Shown here: piece after piece, positions 20,513 through 31,038 of the stretch
Layout: each line of letters opens with the position of its first letter
How positions within the stretch are numbered: position 1 is the first letter of the stretch
Assembly (NCBI RefSeq): GCF_000158095.2
Contig: NZ_CM011002.1
Location: 3,824,703-3,888,702 of the forward strand
Reading direction: 5' to 3'
Source: Roseibium alexandrii DFL-11
Lineage (GTDB): Bacteria > Pseudomonadota > Alphaproteobacteria > Rhizobiales > Stappiaceae
Length of the DNA: 64,000 bases
Notes under the pieces: model-generated
The model's input: the letters and a program-made list of their open reading frames with translations, nothing else
What the model was told of the DNA's origin: nothing
Databases searched by the model: none
Program-made: the position numbers and the translations under genes

Positions 20513-20527
20513 TTAACAATGTCTAAA
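20513..20527 (+). promoter_or_regulatory. CtrA-like site in oriC
   Basis: TTAA at 20513-20516, seven-base spacer, TAAA at 20524-20527, one base from the full TTAA-N7-TTAA consensus of CtrA. In Caulobacter such sites overlap the origin and block initiation. Confidence 0.4.
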
Positions 20528-20563
20528 CGCCGGGAAACTGAAACCGGAACGGTTGTGGGCTTT

Positions 20564-20572
20564 TGTGGATCA
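20564..20572 (-). promoter_or_regulatory. DnaA box
   Basis: TGATCCACA on the minus strand, one mismatch from the consensus TTATCCACA and identical to the G-box form described for the Caulobacter origin. Confidence 0.6.
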
Positions 20573-20621
20573 ACATGAGGCCTGTGACATTTCGACAGGC
20601 TATCCACCAACGCCCAATTTC

Positions 20622-20636
20622 TTAACGAAAGGTAAA
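20622..20636 (+). promoter_or_regulatory. CtrA-like site in oriC
   Basis: TTAA at 20622-20625, seven-base spacer, TAAA at 20633-20636; same form as the site at 20513. A two-mismatch DnaA box lies just upstream at 20600-20608. Confidence 0.4.
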
Positions 20637-20749
20637 CACTTTTCTAAATCGCTGTAATTGCGCGCGAAATTTTGTTATCGACTCCTGGGGAGGAGTTAGC
20701 GCGTGTTTGCTGCCGGATTTTTCCCTAAACAGATATCGGAGTGATGGAT

Positions 20750-20758
20750 TGTGGATGA
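20750..20758 (-). promoter_or_regulatory. DnaA box
   Basis: TCATCCACA on the minus strand, one mismatch from TTATCCACA. It is the strongest box on the hemE side and lies about 25 bp before the AT-rich stretch. Confidence 0.55.
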
Positions 20759-20784
20759 AAAAGGATCCCGGTAATCCACGCTCT

Positions 20785-20820
20785 AATAAAAGAAACAGAT
20801 TCAAATATAGAATCTTATTA
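20785..20820. repeat. AT-rich hairpin with two GANTC sites beside hemE
   Basis: Nested inverted repeat: outer arms TAATAA(A)AGA / TCTTATTA with one bulged A, inner arms GATTC (20798-20802) and GAATC (20810-20814). The inner arms are themselves GANTC methylation motifs. It lies in the AT-rich end of the putative origin, just upstream of hemE. Confidence 0.55.
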
Positions 20821-20849
20821 GTTTTGAAATGTGGGAAAGGCGCGACCGT

Positions 20850-23950: not shown

Positions 23951-23964
23951 GTTTCACGTGAATC
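23951..23964 (+). promoter_or_regulatory. parS: parS site 1
   Basis: GTTTCACGTGAATC, one base from the universal ParB palindrome GTTTCACGTGAAAC. The substitution creates GAATC, a GANTC site. It lies 25 bp before the GNAT start, between rho and that gene. Confidence 0.85.
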
Positions 23965-23988
23965 CAGTTTTAGATTCGGACCCGTTTT

Positions 23989-24561
23989 ATGACCCAAGAC
24001 ATTCTCCTGGAAACGGAGCGGTTAATCTGCCGCAGTTGGCAGGATGCCGATCTCGAACCATTTGCCCAAATGTGCGCTGACCCTGAGGTCATGCGGTATT
24101 TTCCCGAGCCGCTCACCTACGATCAAACCACCGCTTTGATTGATAAGGCGAAGGCAAAGCAAGAACAGGATGGCTTTTGTTTCGTGCCAGTGGAAACCAA
24201 AGAGACATCGGAGTTTCTTGGGTTTGTCGGCTTGAGTATTCCCGCATACCCCAAGCCGCTTCCATTTGATCCATGCGTGGAAATTGGCTGGCGTTTGAAG
24301 CGTTCAGCCTGGGGAAAGGGTTACGCAAGTGAAGCCGCATTAGCTTGGCTTCGATTCGGTTTTGAAACCATAGGTCTTGACGAAATTGTTTCTTTCACCT
24401 CAGAAACGAACATTCCTTCTCAAAAGGTTATGGCGCGTGTCGGTATGGGTCGGGATCCGGCAGATGACTTTCTCCACCCGATGCTTTCAGATACCGATGT
24501 GCTTGCACTCCATGTTTTGTACCGTCTAGACCGCGAGACTTGGGCTAGCCGTCGGATGTGA
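23989..24561 (+). CDS. GNAT-family N-acetyltransferase (RimJ/RimL type)
   Basis: 190 residues. TERLICRSWQDADLEPFAQM opens the fold, the acetyl-CoA-binding loop is RSAWGKGYASEAALAWL, and SFTSETNIPSQKVMARVGM closes it. Substrate unknown. It sits between rho and mnmE, flanked by parS sites on both sides, and is not an obvious part of either transcription unit. Confidence 0.85.
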   Translation: MTQDILLETERLICRSWQDADLEPFAQMCADPEVMRYFPEPLTYDQTTALIDKAKAKQEQDGFCFVPVETKETSEFLGFVGLSIPAYPKPLPFDPCVEIGWRLKRSAWGKGYASEAALAWLRFGFETIGLDEIVSFTSETNIPSQKVMARVGMGRDPADDFLHPMLSDTDVLALHVLYRLDRETWASRRM

Positions 24562-24596
24562 CCAATGCAGTTGAGCCGGAACTTTTGTGCTTCAGA

Positions 24597-24610
24597 GATT
24601 CACGTGAAAC
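24597..24610 (-). promoter_or_regulatory. parS: parS site 2
   Basis: GATTCACGTGAAAC, the inverse orientation of site 1; the variant half-site contains GATTC (GANTC). Confidence 0.85.
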
Positions 24611-24673
24611 ACACATCCACAGGGTGGGGCGGCTTTTCAGAAACTTGATACCGGAATTGACGATCCGAAAATT

Positions 24674-24687
24674 GTTTCACGTGAATC
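24674..24687 (+). promoter_or_regulatory. parS: parS site 3
   Basis: GTTTCACGTGAATC, identical to site 1, with GAATC in the right half. Confidence 0.85.
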
Positions 24688-24805
24688 CGAACTGAATCGG
24701 GTACGGATTGTTTTTTGGATAAGGCTCCGTAGTTGGGAAGACTGTGATGAGAGCCTCATAATCCCTGTCCTGAGTTGGTCATCTGTGTGACAGACATAGC
24801 CGCTT

Positions 24806-24819
24806 GATTCACGTGAAAC
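24806..24819 (-). promoter_or_regulatory. parS: parS site 4
   Basis: GATTCACGTGAAAC, identical to site 2, with GATTC in the left half. Confidence 0.85.
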
Positions 24820-25000
24820 AGAAAAGTCTATCTATCGTTCTCACGACCTAGTTTGATTCGGCTGTGCAACGTCTCTCTGTTCCAAATCTGGAGAGTTGAT
24901 AAAACTGAGTTCCGATCAGGAACCAGGGCCACGACCATCTTTCGAACGCACGTGCTTCTTGTTAAAGAGGCAGCAGAATACCTCTGAAACGGAAAGTATT

Positions 25001-26350
25001 ATGGCTGACACGATCTATGCGTTGTCGAGTGGTGCAGTGCCTTCGGGGGTCGCTGTAATCCGCGTCTCCGGTCCTGAAGCCAGAACCGCTACAGTGGCGC
25101 TGTGCGGTAGGATACCCGCGCCACGAAAGACCATGCTTTCCAGGCTTCGCGATCCGGCTTCCCAAGAGATCATTGATCAGGCGTTGGTCCTTTTCTTTGA
25201 GGGGCCTGCAAGTTTCACCGGTGAAGATGTTGTCGAGTTTCAGTGCCATGGCGGCCGCGCTGTCGTTGCTGCGATGCTTCGCATATTGGGCGAATTTCCA
25301 AACTGCCGCCCCGCCGAGCCCGGTGAGTTTACCCGCCGGGCCTTTGACCGGGGCCGGATGGATCTGACCGAGGTGGAGGGGCTCGCGGATCTGATTGCCG
25401 CTGAAACAGAAAGCCAGCGGAAACAGGCTGTCCGCCAAATGGGTGGCGCCCTTGGATCGCTTTATGAAGACTGGCGTAAGCGTCTCATACACATGCGGGC
25501 GATGATCGAAGCTGATTTCGATTTCGCCGATGAGGAGGATGTCCCCGGCAGTGTCGCGGATGAAGTCTGGAAAGAGGCCGCCACACTTCAAAGCGAAGTT
25601 ACCCGTCACCTTGAACAATCCAGAAGCGGCGAGCGTTTGCGATCCGGCTTGCAAGTGGTTTTGATGGGGGCTCCCAACGCAGGCAAGTCGAGCTTGCTGA
25701 ATGCGATCGCCGGCCGGGATGTGGCCATCGTCACCGAGGAAGCGGGAACGACCAGGGATGTGATCGAGGTGCATCTTGATCTTGGCGGGTATCCGGTCAC
25801 CCTTGTGGACACCGCAGGCCTTCGGGAGACAGATGGTATTGTCGAGCGGGAAGGCATTCGCCGTGCAGAAGAGCGTGGACGTCAGGCGGACCTCGTTCTT
25901 TGGGCTGTTGAACCCGGTGGTGTTGAACCCGATCACCCGCAGGCAGGTCTTCCGGAGGATGTCGCCGACCGGGTTCCTGTCTGGACGGTGCGGACAAAGG
26001 CCGATCTTGAGACTCTTCCGGAACAAGACTCTTCCGGAATAACCGAGAAAATTCCTGCATCAAGCAAGTCCGATGAGGGAATGAAGGGTCTGTTTGATGC
26101 CCTGACACGTTTTGCAGAGGAAACGATTTCTGTTGGCGAGGCACCCCTGGCAACACGGGCAAGGCACCGCCATTACCTGAACGACTGTCTGTCTGGCCTG
26201 GGTCAGGCCGTATCCTCAGATCATTTGCCAACAGAACTCAGGGCCGAAGATCTGCGGCGGGCTGCGGACAGCCTGGGCCGGATCACGGGTCGGATTGATG
26301 TCGAGGATCTTCTCGATGTGATCTTTCGGGATTTCTGTATCGGGAAGTAG
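25001..26350 (+). CDS. mnmE: tRNA modification GTPase MnmE (TrmE)
   Basis: With MnmG installs the aminomethyl-type group on wobble uridine 34 of certain tRNAs. 449 residues from ATG 25001, chosen because MADTIYALSSGAVPSGVAVIRVSG is the family N-terminus. It binds a folate derivative through its N-terminal domain. The G domain has P-loop GAPNAGKSS near 223, switch EEAGTTRD and DTAGLRE. The C-terminus ends in the universal FCIGK, whose Cys is catalytic. Two parS sites separate it from mnmG. Confidence 0.95.
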   Translation: MADTIYALSSGAVPSGVAVIRVSGPEARTATVALCGRIPAPRKTMLSRLRDPASQEIIDQALVLFFEGPASFTGEDVVEFQCHGGRAVVAAMLRILGEFPNCRPAEPGEFTRRAFDRGRMDLTEVEGLADLIAAETESQRKQAVRQMGGALGSLYEDWRKRLIHMRAMIEADFDFADEEDVPGSVADEVWKEAATLQSEVTRHLEQSRSGERLRSGLQVVLMGAPNAGKSSLLNAIAGRDVAIVTEEAGTTRDVIEVHLDLGGYPVTLVDTAGLRETDGIVEREGIRRAEERGRQADLVLWAVEPGGVEPDHPQAGLPEDVADRVPVWTVRTKADLETLPEQDSSGITEKIPASSKSDEGMKGLFDALTRFAEETISVGEAPLATRARHRHYLNDCLSGLGQAVSSDHLPTELRAEDLRRAADSLGRITGRIDVEDLLDVIFRDFCIGK

Positions 26351-26353
26351 ATT

Positions 26354-26367
26354 GTTTCACGTGAATC
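26354..26367 (+). promoter_or_regulatory. parS: parS site 5
   Basis: GTTTCACGTGAATC, three bases after the mnmE stop codon; contains GAATC. Confidence 0.85.
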
Positions 26368-26406
26368 AATTCAGGGAAAGACTGGATCGGTTCAGAACCG
26401 GAATAT

Positions 26407-26420
26407 GTTTCACGTGAATC
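26407..26420 (+). promoter_or_regulatory. parS: parS site 6
   Basis: GTTTCACGTGAATC, in the same orientation as site 5 and 53 bp from it; contains GAATC. Both sit in the mnmE-mnmG gap, which otherwise shows nothing. Confidence 0.85.
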
Positions 26421-26644: not shown

Positions 26645-28528
26645 ATGAACGATCAGGTTCTATCGTTTGATGTTGTGGTAATTGGCGGCGGCCATGCCGG
26701 CTGCGAAGCAGCAGCTGCCTCGGCTCGCATGGGCGCTAAGACTGCGCTTGTAACGCACAAGTTCGAGACCATTGGCGTGATGTCCTGTAACCCGGCGATC
26801 GGAGGATTGGGGAAGGGCCATCTCGTTCGTGAGATCGATGCACTCGACGGCCTTATGGGACGCGTCGCTGATCAGGGCGGTATTCAGTTCCGAATGCTCA
26901 ACCGCCGCAAAGGTCCAGCCGTCCGTGGTCCGAGAGCGCAAGCGGACCGGAAACTGTACAGGGAAGCAATGCAGCGTGAGATCGCCGCTGTAGAAAATCT
27001 CACCGTTGTGGAGGGCGAAGCTGAGCAGCTCCGGTTCTCTGGTGCAGATGCGAGATCCGTGACAGGCATCGTTCTTGCGTCTGGTCAGGTAATTGACTGC
27101 GGCGCGGTGGTTTTGACAAGCGGGACATTCCTGCGCGGGCTGATCCATATCGGCGACAGAAAGATCCCGGCTGGGCGGTCTGGTGAGGCGCCCGCAATGG
27201 GGCTGTCTCACTCGCTGGAACAGATTGGTTTTGACCTTGGCCGTTTGAAAACGGGTACGCCTGCGCGACTGGATGGCCGGACAATTCACTGGGATCGGCT
27301 GGAAGAGCAGCCGGGCGACGAAGAACCGATCCCGTTCTCTACGCTGACCGACAAGATTTCGATCCCTCAGATCCCGTGTCACATCACGCGGACGACGCCG
27401 GAAACACATCAGATAATCCGGGACAATCTTGATCGCTCTGCAATGTATTCCGGTGAGATCAAGGGCCGCGGTCCTCGCTATTGCCCATCCATTGAAGACA
27501 AAATCGTCCGCTTCGGCGATCGGGATGGCCACCAGATTTTCCTGGAGCCTGAGGGTCTCGATGATCACACGGTTTATCCAAACGGGATTTCCACCTCGTT
27601 GCCGGAAGATGCGCAGATTGCCTTCTTGCGGACTATCCCAGGGCTAGAGAACGTTGAGGTCATTCAGCCGGGATATGCCATCGAGTATGACCACGTCGAC
27701 CCGCGCGAATTGCGGGCAACCCTGGAAGCCAAACGGTGTGCGGGTCTTTACCTCGCAGGTCAGATCAATGGAACGACCGGCTATGAAGAGGCGGGTGCTC
27801 AAGGTCTTGTGGCTGGTTTGAATGCCGCGTTGAAGGTCGCGGACAAGGCGCCGTTTATCGTTGACCGGTCCCAAGGCTATATCGGCGTTATGATCGATGA
27901 TCTCATCACCCGCGGAATCACAGAACCCTATCGCATGTTTACCTCACGGGCGGAGTATAGGTTGTCGCTCAGAGCAGACAATGCGGATCAACGTTTGACG
28001 CCTCTTGGAATTGAGATCGGCTGCGTGTCTGATGACCGCCGTGCCGCCTATGAAGCGAAGATGGAAAAGATCTTGGCTGCGCGCGATTTGCTGCAGAGCC
28101 TGACGGTGACCCCGAACGAAGCGACAAAAAAGGGGTTGCCTGTCAATCAGGATGGCGTCCGCCGTTCCGCCTTCGATCTGTTATCCTATCCGAAAGTCAC
28201 GTTTGATGGGCTGCAAATGGTTTGGCCGGAGCTCGGGCATATGGATCCTGCAGTTGTCGAGCAGGTTACAACGGATGCTCTTTATGCTGTTTACCTAGAG
28301 CGGCAGACGGCCGACATCGAAGCCTTGAAGCGCGATGAGGCTTTGGGAATCCCCGATGATTTCGATTACGAAGCGATTGTCGGGTTGTCCAATGAAGTCA
28401 AACAAAAGCTCGCGGACATTCGGCCTGCGACATTGGGGCAGGCGTCGCGCATGGATGGGATGACCCCTGCAGCTCTGACACTGATCCTCTCCCATTTGAA
28501 ACGTCAGTCTCAGCGCGGGGCGGCCTGA
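26645..28528 (+). CDS. mnmG: tRNA uridine-34 modification enzyme MnmG (GidA)
   Basis: FAD-dependent partner of MnmE in tRNA wobble-uridine modification. 627 residues from ATG 26645, which gives [19 protein letters not shown]; the 16 upstream codons are not family-like. FAD site [10 protein letters not shown] is near residues 13-22. GidA signatures are [13 protein letters not shown] and [17 protein letters not shown]-terminal helical domain that contacts MnmE follows. Its TGA overlaps the rsmG ATG by one base (TGATG). Confidence 0.96.
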
Positions 28529-29184
28529 TGGGGCGCCCGGTGGTGTTGAATGGTTCTGGAGATGCTGTGTATAAGTTTGGGGATGTTTCACGTGAAACGT
28601 TGGATCGTCTCCAGATTTATGTGGATCTGGTTTTGAAGTGGCAACCCGCACAAAACCTCATTGCTCCGTCTACAATTCCGGATATCTGGACCCGCCATGT
28701 AGCGGATAGCCTGCAAACGCAGTGGAGTTATCCAGAGGCGAAGGTCTGGGTGGATATCGGAAGCGGCGGTGGGTTCCCGGGCGTTGTGACGGCGATCCTT
28801 CTGGCAGACGAGCCGGATGCCCATGTCCACATGATCGAGAGCAATCAGCGGAAGGCGGCGTTCCTTCGGACGGCTTTGAGAGAGACCGGATCGAAAGGGA
28901 CTGTCCACGCGGGCCGGATCGAATCGGTTGCGGAAGGGTGGAGCCATGGCCCGGTGGATGCTGTTTCTGCCCGAGCCTTGGCCTCTTTGAATCTGCTTTT
29001 TGATCTTGCCGAGCCGTTTACGGCACAGGGGTCAAAGGCCGTTTTCCACAAAGGCCAGGATTTTCGTCGGGAACTCGATGAAGTGTCTGACTCTTGGCAG
29101 TTCGATCTGGTAGAAAAGGAAAGTGTTGTTGATCCTTTGAGCCGGATGCTCCTCTTTTCAAATATATCAGCCCGGTCAAAGTAG
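28528..29184 (+). CDS. rsmG: 16S rRNA G527 methyltransferase RsmG (GidB)
   Basis: Methylates N7 of G527 in 16S rRNA; loss confers low-level streptomycin resistance in other bacteria. 218 residues. The SAM-binding motif VDIGSGGGFPGV is at about 74-85, with the conserved AENLIAPS-like QNLIAPSTIPDIWTRHVADSL upstream and SARALASLNLL downstream. The segment DVSRETLDRL near residue 20 is encoded across a perfect parS site. Coupled to mnmG by a one-base overlap; parA follows after about 20 bp. Confidence 0.95.
   Translation: MGRPVVLNGSGDAVYKFGDVSRETLDRLQIYVDLVLKWQPAQNLIAPSTIPDIWTRHVADSLQTQWSYPEAKVWVDIGSGGGFPGVVTAILLADEPDAHVHMIESNQRKAAFLRTALRETGSKGTVHAGRIESVAEGWSHGPVDAVSARALASLNLLFDLAEPFTAQGSKAVFHKGQDFRRELDEVSDSWQFDLVEKESVVDPLSRMLLFSNISARSK
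28585..28598. promoter_or_regulatory. parS: parS site 7 (perfect, inside rsmG)
   Basis: GTTTCACGTGAAAC, the exact 14-bp palindrome, embedded in the rsmG coding sequence, where its bases spell Val-Ser-Arg-Glu-Thr. It is the only site of the seven without GANTC. Confidence 0.9.
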
Positions 29185-29203
29185 CCTGGAAGGTGTGGTG
29201 GTA

Positions 29204-30028
29204 ATGAACATACTTCCCGAAATGCCGCGTGTGCTCGCACTCGCGAATCAAAAGGGCGGGGTTGGGAAAACCACCACGGCCATCAACCTCGGAACGGCGC
29301 TTGCCGCAATCGGGGAGAAAGTCCTCGTTATCGATCTTGATCCGCAGGGGAACGCTTCGACGGGTCTTGGGATCGAGCACCGGGACCGCGGCCTGTCGAC
29401 TTATGAAATCCTGAGCGGCGACTGCGCGATGGACGAGGCGATCCGCGAAACCGCGGTTCAACGCTTGTGGGTGGCTCCGTCCACCATGGACCTTCTCGGC
29501 CTAGAGCTTGAAATTGCGTCTACCAGCGACCGGGCGTTCCGGCTGCGCAATGCGATCGAAAACCTGACGCATTCCCGGCTCTTCAAGGAAATTGGCTTTA
29601 CCTACGTCCTTGTAGACTGCCCGCCGTCCTTGAACTTGCTCACGATCAACGCGCTGTCTGCAAGCCACTCGATCCTGGTTCCGCTGCAGTGCGAGTTCTT
29701 TGCGCTTGAAGGTTTGAGCCAGTTGCTGAGCACGGTCGAGCAGGTGAAATCTGCTTTGAACCCGGAGCTCAGCATCCACGGGATCGTTCTGACGATGTAT
29801 GACAGCCGGAACAATCTCTCCAGTCAGGTCGTTGCGGATGTTCGCGAAACGATGGGCGAAGCCGTTTATGACACGATCATACCGCGCAACGTTCGGATCT
29901 CCGAGGCACCGTCCTATGGCAAACCGGCGCTGCTCTATGACCTGAAATGTGCGGGAAGTCAGGCGTATCTCCGCCTTGCTTCTGAAATCATTCAGCGGGA
30001 GCGGCAGCTGCGCAGCGTTGCAGCCTAA
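29204..30028 (+). CDS. parA: Chromosome partitioning ATPase ParA
   Basis: Nucleoid-bound ATPase that pulls ParB-parS complexes apart after replication. 274 residues from ATG 29204; GTG at 29195 is also possible, with GGAAGG just upstream. Deviant Walker A KGGVGKT is at about 17-23, Walker A' is LVIDLDPQGNAS, and Walker B is YVLVDCPPSLNLLT. Adjacent parB and nearby parS sites complete the system. Close to rsmG, so probably read from the mnmG-rsmG transcript. Confidence 0.96.
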   Translation: MNILPEMPRVLALANQKGGVGKTTTAINLGTALAAIGEKVLVIDLDPQGNASTGLGIEHRDRGLSTYEILSGDCAMDEAIRETAVQRLWVAPSTMDLLGLELEIASTSDRAFRLRNAIENLTHSRLFKEIGFTYVLVDCPPSLNLLTINALSASHSILVPLQCEFFALEGLSQLLSTVEQVKSALNPELSIHGIVLTMYDSRNNLSSQVVADVRETMGEAVYDTIIPRNVRISEAPSYGKPALLYDLKCAGSQAYLRLASEIIQRERQLRSVAA

Positions 30029-30132: not shown

Positions 30133-31038
30133 ATGGCGGACAAGGACGTCAAAAACAAGCGGCTTGGCCGCGGTCTAGCAGCTCTCATTGGCGATTCAGC
30201 GCAAGAGGCATCTCCAGCACCTGAAAAAGTGGTTCGCGACAGCCGCAGGGTCCCGATTGAGCATATCGAGCCAAACCCGCGCAATCCGCGTAAGACTTTC
30301 ACGGAAAAGGATCTGGCGGACCTTTCCGAATCTCTAAAAGCCAAAGGTATCGTGCAGCCGATCCTTGTTCGCCCTGCAGCCGGGAAAACGAACCGGTTTG
30401 AGATCATCGCCGGCGAGCGGCGCTGGCGGGCCGCGCAGCGGGCTGGGCTTCATGAAGCGCCGATCATTATCCGTGATGTCACGGATCAGGAAGCTCTGGA
30501 GCTGGCGATCATCGAGAACGTGCAGCGGGCGGATCTCAATCCGATCGAAGAAGCGATGGGTTATGAGCAGCTCACTGCCGATTTTAGCTACAGCCAGGGT
30601 GAGTTAGCCAAGGTTATCGGCAAAAGCCGGAGCCATGTTGCCAACACCATGCGGCTGTTGAAGCTGCCGAATTCAGTCAAAGACTATCTGGCTGAGGGGC
30701 TTTTGACGGCTGGTCATGCGCGGGCGCTGATTACGGTTGATGATCCGGCTGCCTTGGCCGAACTGATCGTTGAAAAGGGTCTGACGGTGCGCGATGCGGA
30801 AAAGCTCGCTCAGGACCCCGATGCACTGGCGAAGTTGAAGGGCGAAAAAACCCCGACCGAAAAGCTGCAAAAGGACGCCGATACGAAAGCTTTGGAAAAG
30901 CGGCTGGCAGACACGCTGGGACTGAAAGTCACCGTCGGTCACAAATCCGGTAAAGAGTCTGGCGATCTGAAGATCAAATACACGTCTTTGGAACAGCTCG
31001 ATCAGATTTGCCGGCTGCTGGGCGTTGAAAACCGATGA
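30133..31038 (+). CDS. parB: Chromosome partitioning CTPase ParB
   Basis: Binds parS, loads as a CTP-dependent clamp and spreads on DNA. 301 residues. A short N-terminal ParA-activating segment RLGRGLAALIGD is at about 10-21. The CTPase domain has GERRWRAA at about 94-101 and ENVQRADLNPIEEA at about 128-141. The parS-reading helix-turn-helix SQGELAKVIGKSRSHVANTMRL is near 154-175, and a C-terminal dimerisation domain follows. 104 bp after parA; a terminator closes the unit. Confidence 0.96.
   Translation: MADKDVKNKRLGRGLAALIGDSAQEASPAPEKVVRDSRRVPIEHIEPNPRNPRKTFTEKDLADLSESLKAKGIVQPILVRPAAGKTNRFEIIAGERRWRAAQRAGLHEAPIIIRDVTDQEALELAIIENVQRADLNPIEEAMGYEQLTADFSYSQGELAKVIGKSRSHVANTMRLLKLPNSVKDYLAEGLLTAGHARALITVDDPAALAELIVEKGLTVRDAEKLAQDPDALAKLKGEKTPTEKLQKDADTKALEKRLADTLGLKVTVGHKSGKESGDLKIKYTSLEQLDQICRLLGVENR

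Follow-up and report, generated by a model that had tools for sequence, protein, structure and literature searches.

How the segregation of replication origins is coupled to replication in bacteria is still an open question. The window analysed here, a stretch of 64,000 nucleotides of Roseibium alexandrii DFL-11, raises it in a specific form: why do six of its seven predicted parS sites contain GANTC, the target of the CcrM methyltransferase, inside the ParB site itself? If parS does bear a methyl mark that is reset by replication, the coupling of segregation to replication becomes directly testable. Even without a role for methylation, an asymmetric, non-consensus half-site is, on the present data, maintained by selection across many genera, and such a half-site is not predicted by the usual picture of parS as a palindrome.

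Composite parS sites in the Roseibium window

We searched the whole genome (5.46 Mb in 3 contigs) and found seven sites with at most one mismatch from the canonical parS, GTTTCACGTGAAAC, all of them in the window. They are given below with the neighbouring features; GATTCACGTGAAAC is GTTTCACGTGAATC inverted.

23951..23964, plus strand: predicted parS of GANTC type, reads GTTTCACGTGAATC, GANTC at 23960-23964, in the gap between rho and the GNAT-like ORF
23973..23977, unstranded: extra GANTC beside parS, with similar ones at 24694 and 24855, in the context GATTCGG or GAATCGG, a Roseibium habit
24597..24610, minus strand: predicted parS of GANTC type, inverted, reads GATTCACGTGAAAC, GANTC at 24597-24601, in the gap between the GNAT-like ORF and mnmE
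24674..24687, plus strand: predicted parS of GANTC type, reads GTTTCACGTGAATC, GANTC at 24683-24687, in the gap between the GNAT-like ORF and mnmE
24806..24819, minus strand: predicted parS of GANTC type, inverted, reads GATTCACGTGAAAC, GANTC at 24806-24810, in the gap between the GNAT-like ORF and mnmE
26354..26367, plus strand: predicted parS of GANTC type, reads GTTTCACGTGAATC, GANTC at 26363-26367, in the mnmE-mnmG intergenic region
26407..26420, plus strand: predicted parS of GANTC type, reads GTTTCACGTGAATC, GANTC at 26416-26420, in the mnmE-mnmG gap, 53 bp from the 26354 site
28528..29184, plus strand: rsmG (gidB), which contains the canonical parS
28585..28598, unstranded: predicted canonical palindromic parS without GANTC, within the rsmG coding region
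29195..30028, plus strand: ParA ATPase (Pfam AAA_31)
30133..31038, plus strand: chromosomal ParB with ParB_N, HTH_ParB and ParB_C, each above its Pfam cut-off

The names rho, GNAT-like, mnmE and mnmG are assumed from recognition of the ORFs, and those of parA, parB, rsmG and ccrM come from searches. The original prediction had placed six sites at these coordinates and described a single shared substitution, in either half, that breaks the palindrome and makes GANTC. Both points proved correct: six of the seven sites are imperfect palindromes, each broken at one base, with GANTC in one half only. The seven sites span 4.65 kb and lie 1.5-6.2 kb upstream of parB, clustered near the origin. Six more sites with two mismatches are scattered over the genome, and a reversed-pattern control gave two sites with at most one mismatch in the whole genome. 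Single changes in parS are generally tolerated. If each single substitution out of the 42 that exist had the same chance, finding 6/6 in the two classes that make GANTC would have p ~1.2e-8, a crude null given that ParB tolerance is unequal across substitutions and that the six sites may share descent. Across positions 1-64000, GANTC occurs 91 times, where dinucleotide shuffles give 326 on average (sd 18), and is thus under-represented ~3.6-fold.

The lack of a ccrM gene, which the original prediction had named as evidence against itself, is not what the genome shows. A putative full-length CcrM gene is present: a RAMA-domain gene scores 78 bits (cut-off 35.2), and the putative CcrM, a 386-residue ORF, matches NF050803 over 348/350 positions with 625 bits, under the model cut-off of 830. 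We take the region 20527..20828, between PPDK-regulator-like and hemE-like genes, to be the probable oriC; its placement and these gene names are our assumption. The region holds GANTC at 20680, 20798 and 20810, and the predicted parS sites would lie ~3-8 kb away from it.

In most respects the locus resembles chromosomal ParABS systems such as that of Caulobacter (ParB-parS structures 6t1f and 6s6h): its ParB has the three domains and the equivalents of R173 and G201, parA-parB sit beside rsmG/mnmG near the origin, and one parS is perfect. It differs from them in that 6/7 of the Roseibium sites are non-palindromic and carry a CcrM site, a type rare outside the order in our samples. This ParB is closest, at 97-98% identity, to that of an alphaproteobacterial bin and to those of Labrenzia records, and the remaining near group is Roseibium. 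A search of the openly licensed literature, literal 14-mers included, turned up no earlier account of a GANTC within a ParB site, and no measurement of ParB binding at different methylation states.

Distribution of the GANTC-type parS

The original prediction had proposed counting the variant in related genomes, and the count was in its favour. In 249 Hyphomicrobiales genomes, the GANTC-type pattern, GANTCACGTGAAAC, was matched 358 times. The matches fall in 124 genomes, representing 52/107 genera and 23/48 families, and the other 125 genomes lack any such site. A control pattern with G or C at the deviant base (GSNTC, GSNTCACGTGAAAC), which covers twice as many possible sequences, has 38 matches in 36/249 genomes, and the reversed-pattern control has 3 across the same 249. 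In 80 named loci, picked by ParB similarity, there are 369 sites with at most one mismatch: 256 are of GANTC type, 102 are canonical, and the remaining 11 carry some other single change. Of these loci, 77/80 have one or more sites of GANTC type, the exceptions being two Methylobrevis and L208, where the short contig (3.7 kb left of parB) accounts for the absence. In each of the 13 loci of the Agrobacterium group, of which C58 is not one, a pair of GANTC-type sites is accompanied by a single canonical site.

The picture is different in the class as a whole. Among 303 sites in 140 class-wide loci, 262 are canonical and 41 carry non-canonical single changes (17 A11G, 10 G8A, 6 T9G, 5 A13T, and 3 others); the GANTC type occurs in 4/140 loci. 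In a sample of the phylum, the pattern was found in 19/38 genomes of the order, 1/50 other alphaproteobacteria and 11/161 non-alphaproteobacteria, with a single match per positive genome outside the order. The predicted GANTC-type parS is thus order-wide but patchy, and not fully confined to Hyphomicrobiales. One non-alphaproteobacterial genus was positive in 4 of the 6 genomes sampled (G544, G553, G560, G563), with one GATTCACGTGAAAC each.

Presence of CcrM can be ruled out as a predictor of the variant. A RAMA/CcrM match was found in 248/249 genomes of the order and the variant in 124/249, and since CcrM is nearly universal there, it cannot explain which genomes have it. It fails also at the level of the class, where 138/192 genomes are positive and the variant is nearly restricted to the order. 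Outside the order the two are unlinked: the variant is found in 1/24 CcrM-minus loci (the complement of the listed matches) and in 3/107 CcrM-plus loci, a figure that includes one locus of the order.

Selection on one half-site

To the selection that the original prediction had read into the repeated deviation, three lines of evidence lend weight: the 358 matches against 38 for the control, the invariance of the deviant T in Roseibium, and the change of opposite halves at one slot. For the second, we aligned the mnmE-mnmG region of the window with that of 30 Roseibium loci (2 of 32 were left out, the mnmE-mnmG gap not having been found in them). The deviant T13 is invariant at both sites in 31/31 sequences, which are related and hence amount to fewer than 31 independent observations. 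All 14 bases of the 26354 site are invariant across the 31 sequences. The flanks drift, with a mean column identity of 0.66 in the region. Since a tolerated change is expected to revert occasionally, the conservation of T13 suggests more than tolerance.

For the third, Roseibium carries GANTC on the right side of the site in the slot before mnmG, and Agrobacterium and its relatives carry it on the left; the site in this mnmE-mnmG slot follows the canonical sequence in Stappia, Pseudovibrio, Breoghania and Hongsoonwoonella. At least three changes at the slot are required on the ParB tree. The original prediction had counted it as contrary evidence if related species had parS without GANTC in the corresponding positions; in these four genera that is the case for this slot, and Roseibium keeps GANTC. 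The change is also restricted to one half: of the 287 sites that lie outside rsmG, a single one is altered on both sides, where independence of the halves would predict ~58.

Variation within the changed half points to GANTC as well. The free base of the motif, N, varies between T and C in many families, and its neighbour, a variable base in canonical sites, is mostly fixed there. GACTC is found in 11/150 of the listed order matches (families f6, f23 and f158); it is frequent in f24 among the matches listed and occurs in Pseudovibrio and one Rhizobium among the named loci. A or G was never seen at this base among the order matches listed, which suggests that ParB still constrains it. Single changes of T3 and T4 were found in 0 and 17 loci, respectively, in the canonical context, and in 6 and 2 in the GANTC context (Fisher p 0.00016, or 0.03 when Pseudovibrio is entered as one). 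This test uses locus counts and leaves out the loci with two changes, 10 with GTCC and 2 with GACC. Two cases are contrary: GTTTCACGTGGGAC, in ten Agrobacterium-group loci, has both T3 and T4 changed without GANTC, and a single T3C site without GANTC, GTCTCACGTGAAAC, is found in G423 among the matches listed.

The parS within rsmG is never of GANTC type (0/80 sites in named loci, 0/123 in class loci), an absence that could be explained by coding constraint too. From sequence comparison we consider it established that the predicted sites are of composite design, and that this design is conserved, confined to one half and distributed over the order Hyphomicrobiales; selection on the predicted parS/GANTC composite is well supported. 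Two further sites may be mentioned. GTTTCACGTGGGAC is a conserved two-mismatch parS-like site ~7.2 kb right of the parB start (in L269, L270, L271, L274, L277, L279 and L281-L284). In L205, 5459 bases left of parB, GATTCACGTGAATC carries a GANTC in each half, and no other site of the 80 named loci does.

Possible roles of methylation and of ParB preference

What the composite is for is a matter of graded plausibility. Our preferred reading, held tentatively and at a little short of an even chance, is that these are main-chromosome ParB loading sites in which one half has been selected into a CcrM site, so that ParB loading is modestly tuned by methylation. The intact half would be kept to anchor ParB. 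As the predicted sites are ~3-8 kb from the probable oriC, they would pass from the fully methylated to the hemimethylated state early in replication, and would remain so until CcrM acts late in the cell cycle, following the timing of CcrM in the literature. The methyl groups would fall on the changed half-site and tune ParB affinity modestly there. A centromere would then offer one number of strong loading sites before replication and another just after it, and loading at the GANTC-free rsmG site would stay the same throughout. The direction of the effect, i.e. whether methylation aids or hinders ParB or whether ParB blocks CcrM, cannot be read from sequence.

A bolder version, which we think unlikely, is that the Hyphomicrobiales centromere senses its own replication: CcrM would mark one half of every intergenic parS, hemimethylation would alter ParB loading, and the rsmG site would be a constitutive backup. 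Replication would then set segregation or the strength of the ParB cluster. A possible chemistry is that the N6-methyl on the adenine opposite T13 would replace, in the major groove, the thymine methyl of the canonical A13:T; ParB would then see the methylated half-site as nearly canonical. Sisters could even differ, as each keeps a different methylated strand. In Agrobacterium tumefaciens, PMC11514494 reports 'no obvious difference' in ori1 duplication and partitioning on CcrM depletion, and no significant difference in ori1 on CcrM over-expression. This speaks against an obligatory hemimethylation gate. The one canonical parS could mask an effect of CcrM on partitioning, and methylation tuning is probably redundant rather than essential. 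The same excerpts describe a lower methylation signal at origin-near GANTC, consistent with long hemimethylation (PMC11514494). A. tumefaciens ParB1 binds its parS1 sites, whose letters are not given in the portion of text available for PMC9239152.

The idea of reading newly replicated, origin-near DNA through hemimethylation has a precedent in the SeqA/GATC origin sequestration of E. coli. The present case is unlike it in that no SeqA-like reader was identified and the mark would lie within the centromere site itself. In the GcrA/CcrM switches of A. tumefaciens (gcrA, repABC-Ch2), a GANTC state changed by the fork likewise serves as a cell-cycle signal; as described in the excerpts of PMC11514494, those switches work via GcrA at promoters and not at a site where ParB loads. 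The repABC parS of pAMI4 is another alphaproteobacterial case of centromere-like sites near an excess of GANTC, which there, in the section consulted of PMC9040568, lies ~500 bp from the parS of RepB and here lies inside the ParB site.

The main rival to methylation tuning, from which sequence cannot fully separate it, is a preference of ParB alone. The ParB of the order would tolerate or prefer an asymmetric T2A half as a weaker loading site, GANTC would be a by-product, and methylation would be irrelevant. We regard this as a serious candidate, though not a likely one. In the 211 of 219 ParB loci kept for the comparison of residues, i.e. those having a site, the equivalent of Caulobacter position 184 is K or R in 80/80 named loci and in 7/131 class loci, and the window's ParB has R, T, K and G at the equivalents of 173, 179, 184 and 201. 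In the passages available from PMC7383237, R173 reads G1, lysine 184 contacts the base-2 phosphate in the Noc-NBS complex, and a Caulobacter ParB with K184 (the RTKG set) is promiscuous and binds several site types. The variant is bound to the order and CcrM is not, and both the 11 positive non-alphaproteobacteria and the restriction of N to T or C among the matches listed also fit a ParB preference. Against it, bare tolerance leaves the T kept in 31/31 Roseibium sequences unexplained, G or C at the same base is ~10 times rarer despite twice the possible sequences, and the T3/T4 reversal fits GANTC better. Moreover, K184 does not predict the variant within the order: it is found in 8/9 readable genomes without the variant and in 4/5 with it, the fifth having N. 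We thus reject it as the determinant, since the trait runs through the whole order and does not tell genomes with the variant from those lacking it (independent pairs on the ParB tree have no power for this association); K/R184 is at most a permissive background.

Two other explanations fare worse. In the first, which we find improbable, ParB bound to parS would exclude CcrM, and the persistently under-methylated island would mark the centromere for another factor. MucR is a known case of a protein that blocks GANTC by binding over it (PMC5172544), but the sole parS-locus methylation measurement mentioned in excerpts of that paper is a Caulobacter control whose value they do not give, and no methylome covering a GANTC-type parS was found in the openly licensed literature. 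In the second, equally hard to credit, GANTC would serve the CcrM/GcrA-controlled transcription of the GNAT-like gene, mnmE and mnmG, and parS would merely share their short promoters; the GANTC-type sites are mostly intergenic and further GANTC are clustered beside them in Roseibium (the 80 named loci hold 173 flanking motifs, 147 of them in Roseibium loci and 26 elsewhere), yet a promoter motif needs no fixed place inside parS, in either orientation and in different intergenic slots, and the Rhizobiaceae loci have no flanking motif and hence no such enrichment.

Tuning of ParB loading by methylation remains the reading that we prefer, in the modest form given above. Two further ideas were rejected. 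Sister discrimination through the orientation of sites is not borne out: four of the six sites in the window point one way and two the other, each orientation occurs once in Agrobacterium, and no consistent strand bias speaks for it. A general GANTC island around parS holds in Roseibium only, once two-mismatch parS are removed; the uncorrected density, which falls from 12-15 per kb at a distance of 8-60 bp to 3 per kb at long range, included GANTC inside two-mismatch parS. In the Roseibium loci (L205-L235, L260 and L263), more GANTC, often as GATTCGG(A), are found 14-30 bp beside the GANTC-type parS, and many species of the genus have a third GANTC between the two mnmE-mnmG sites.
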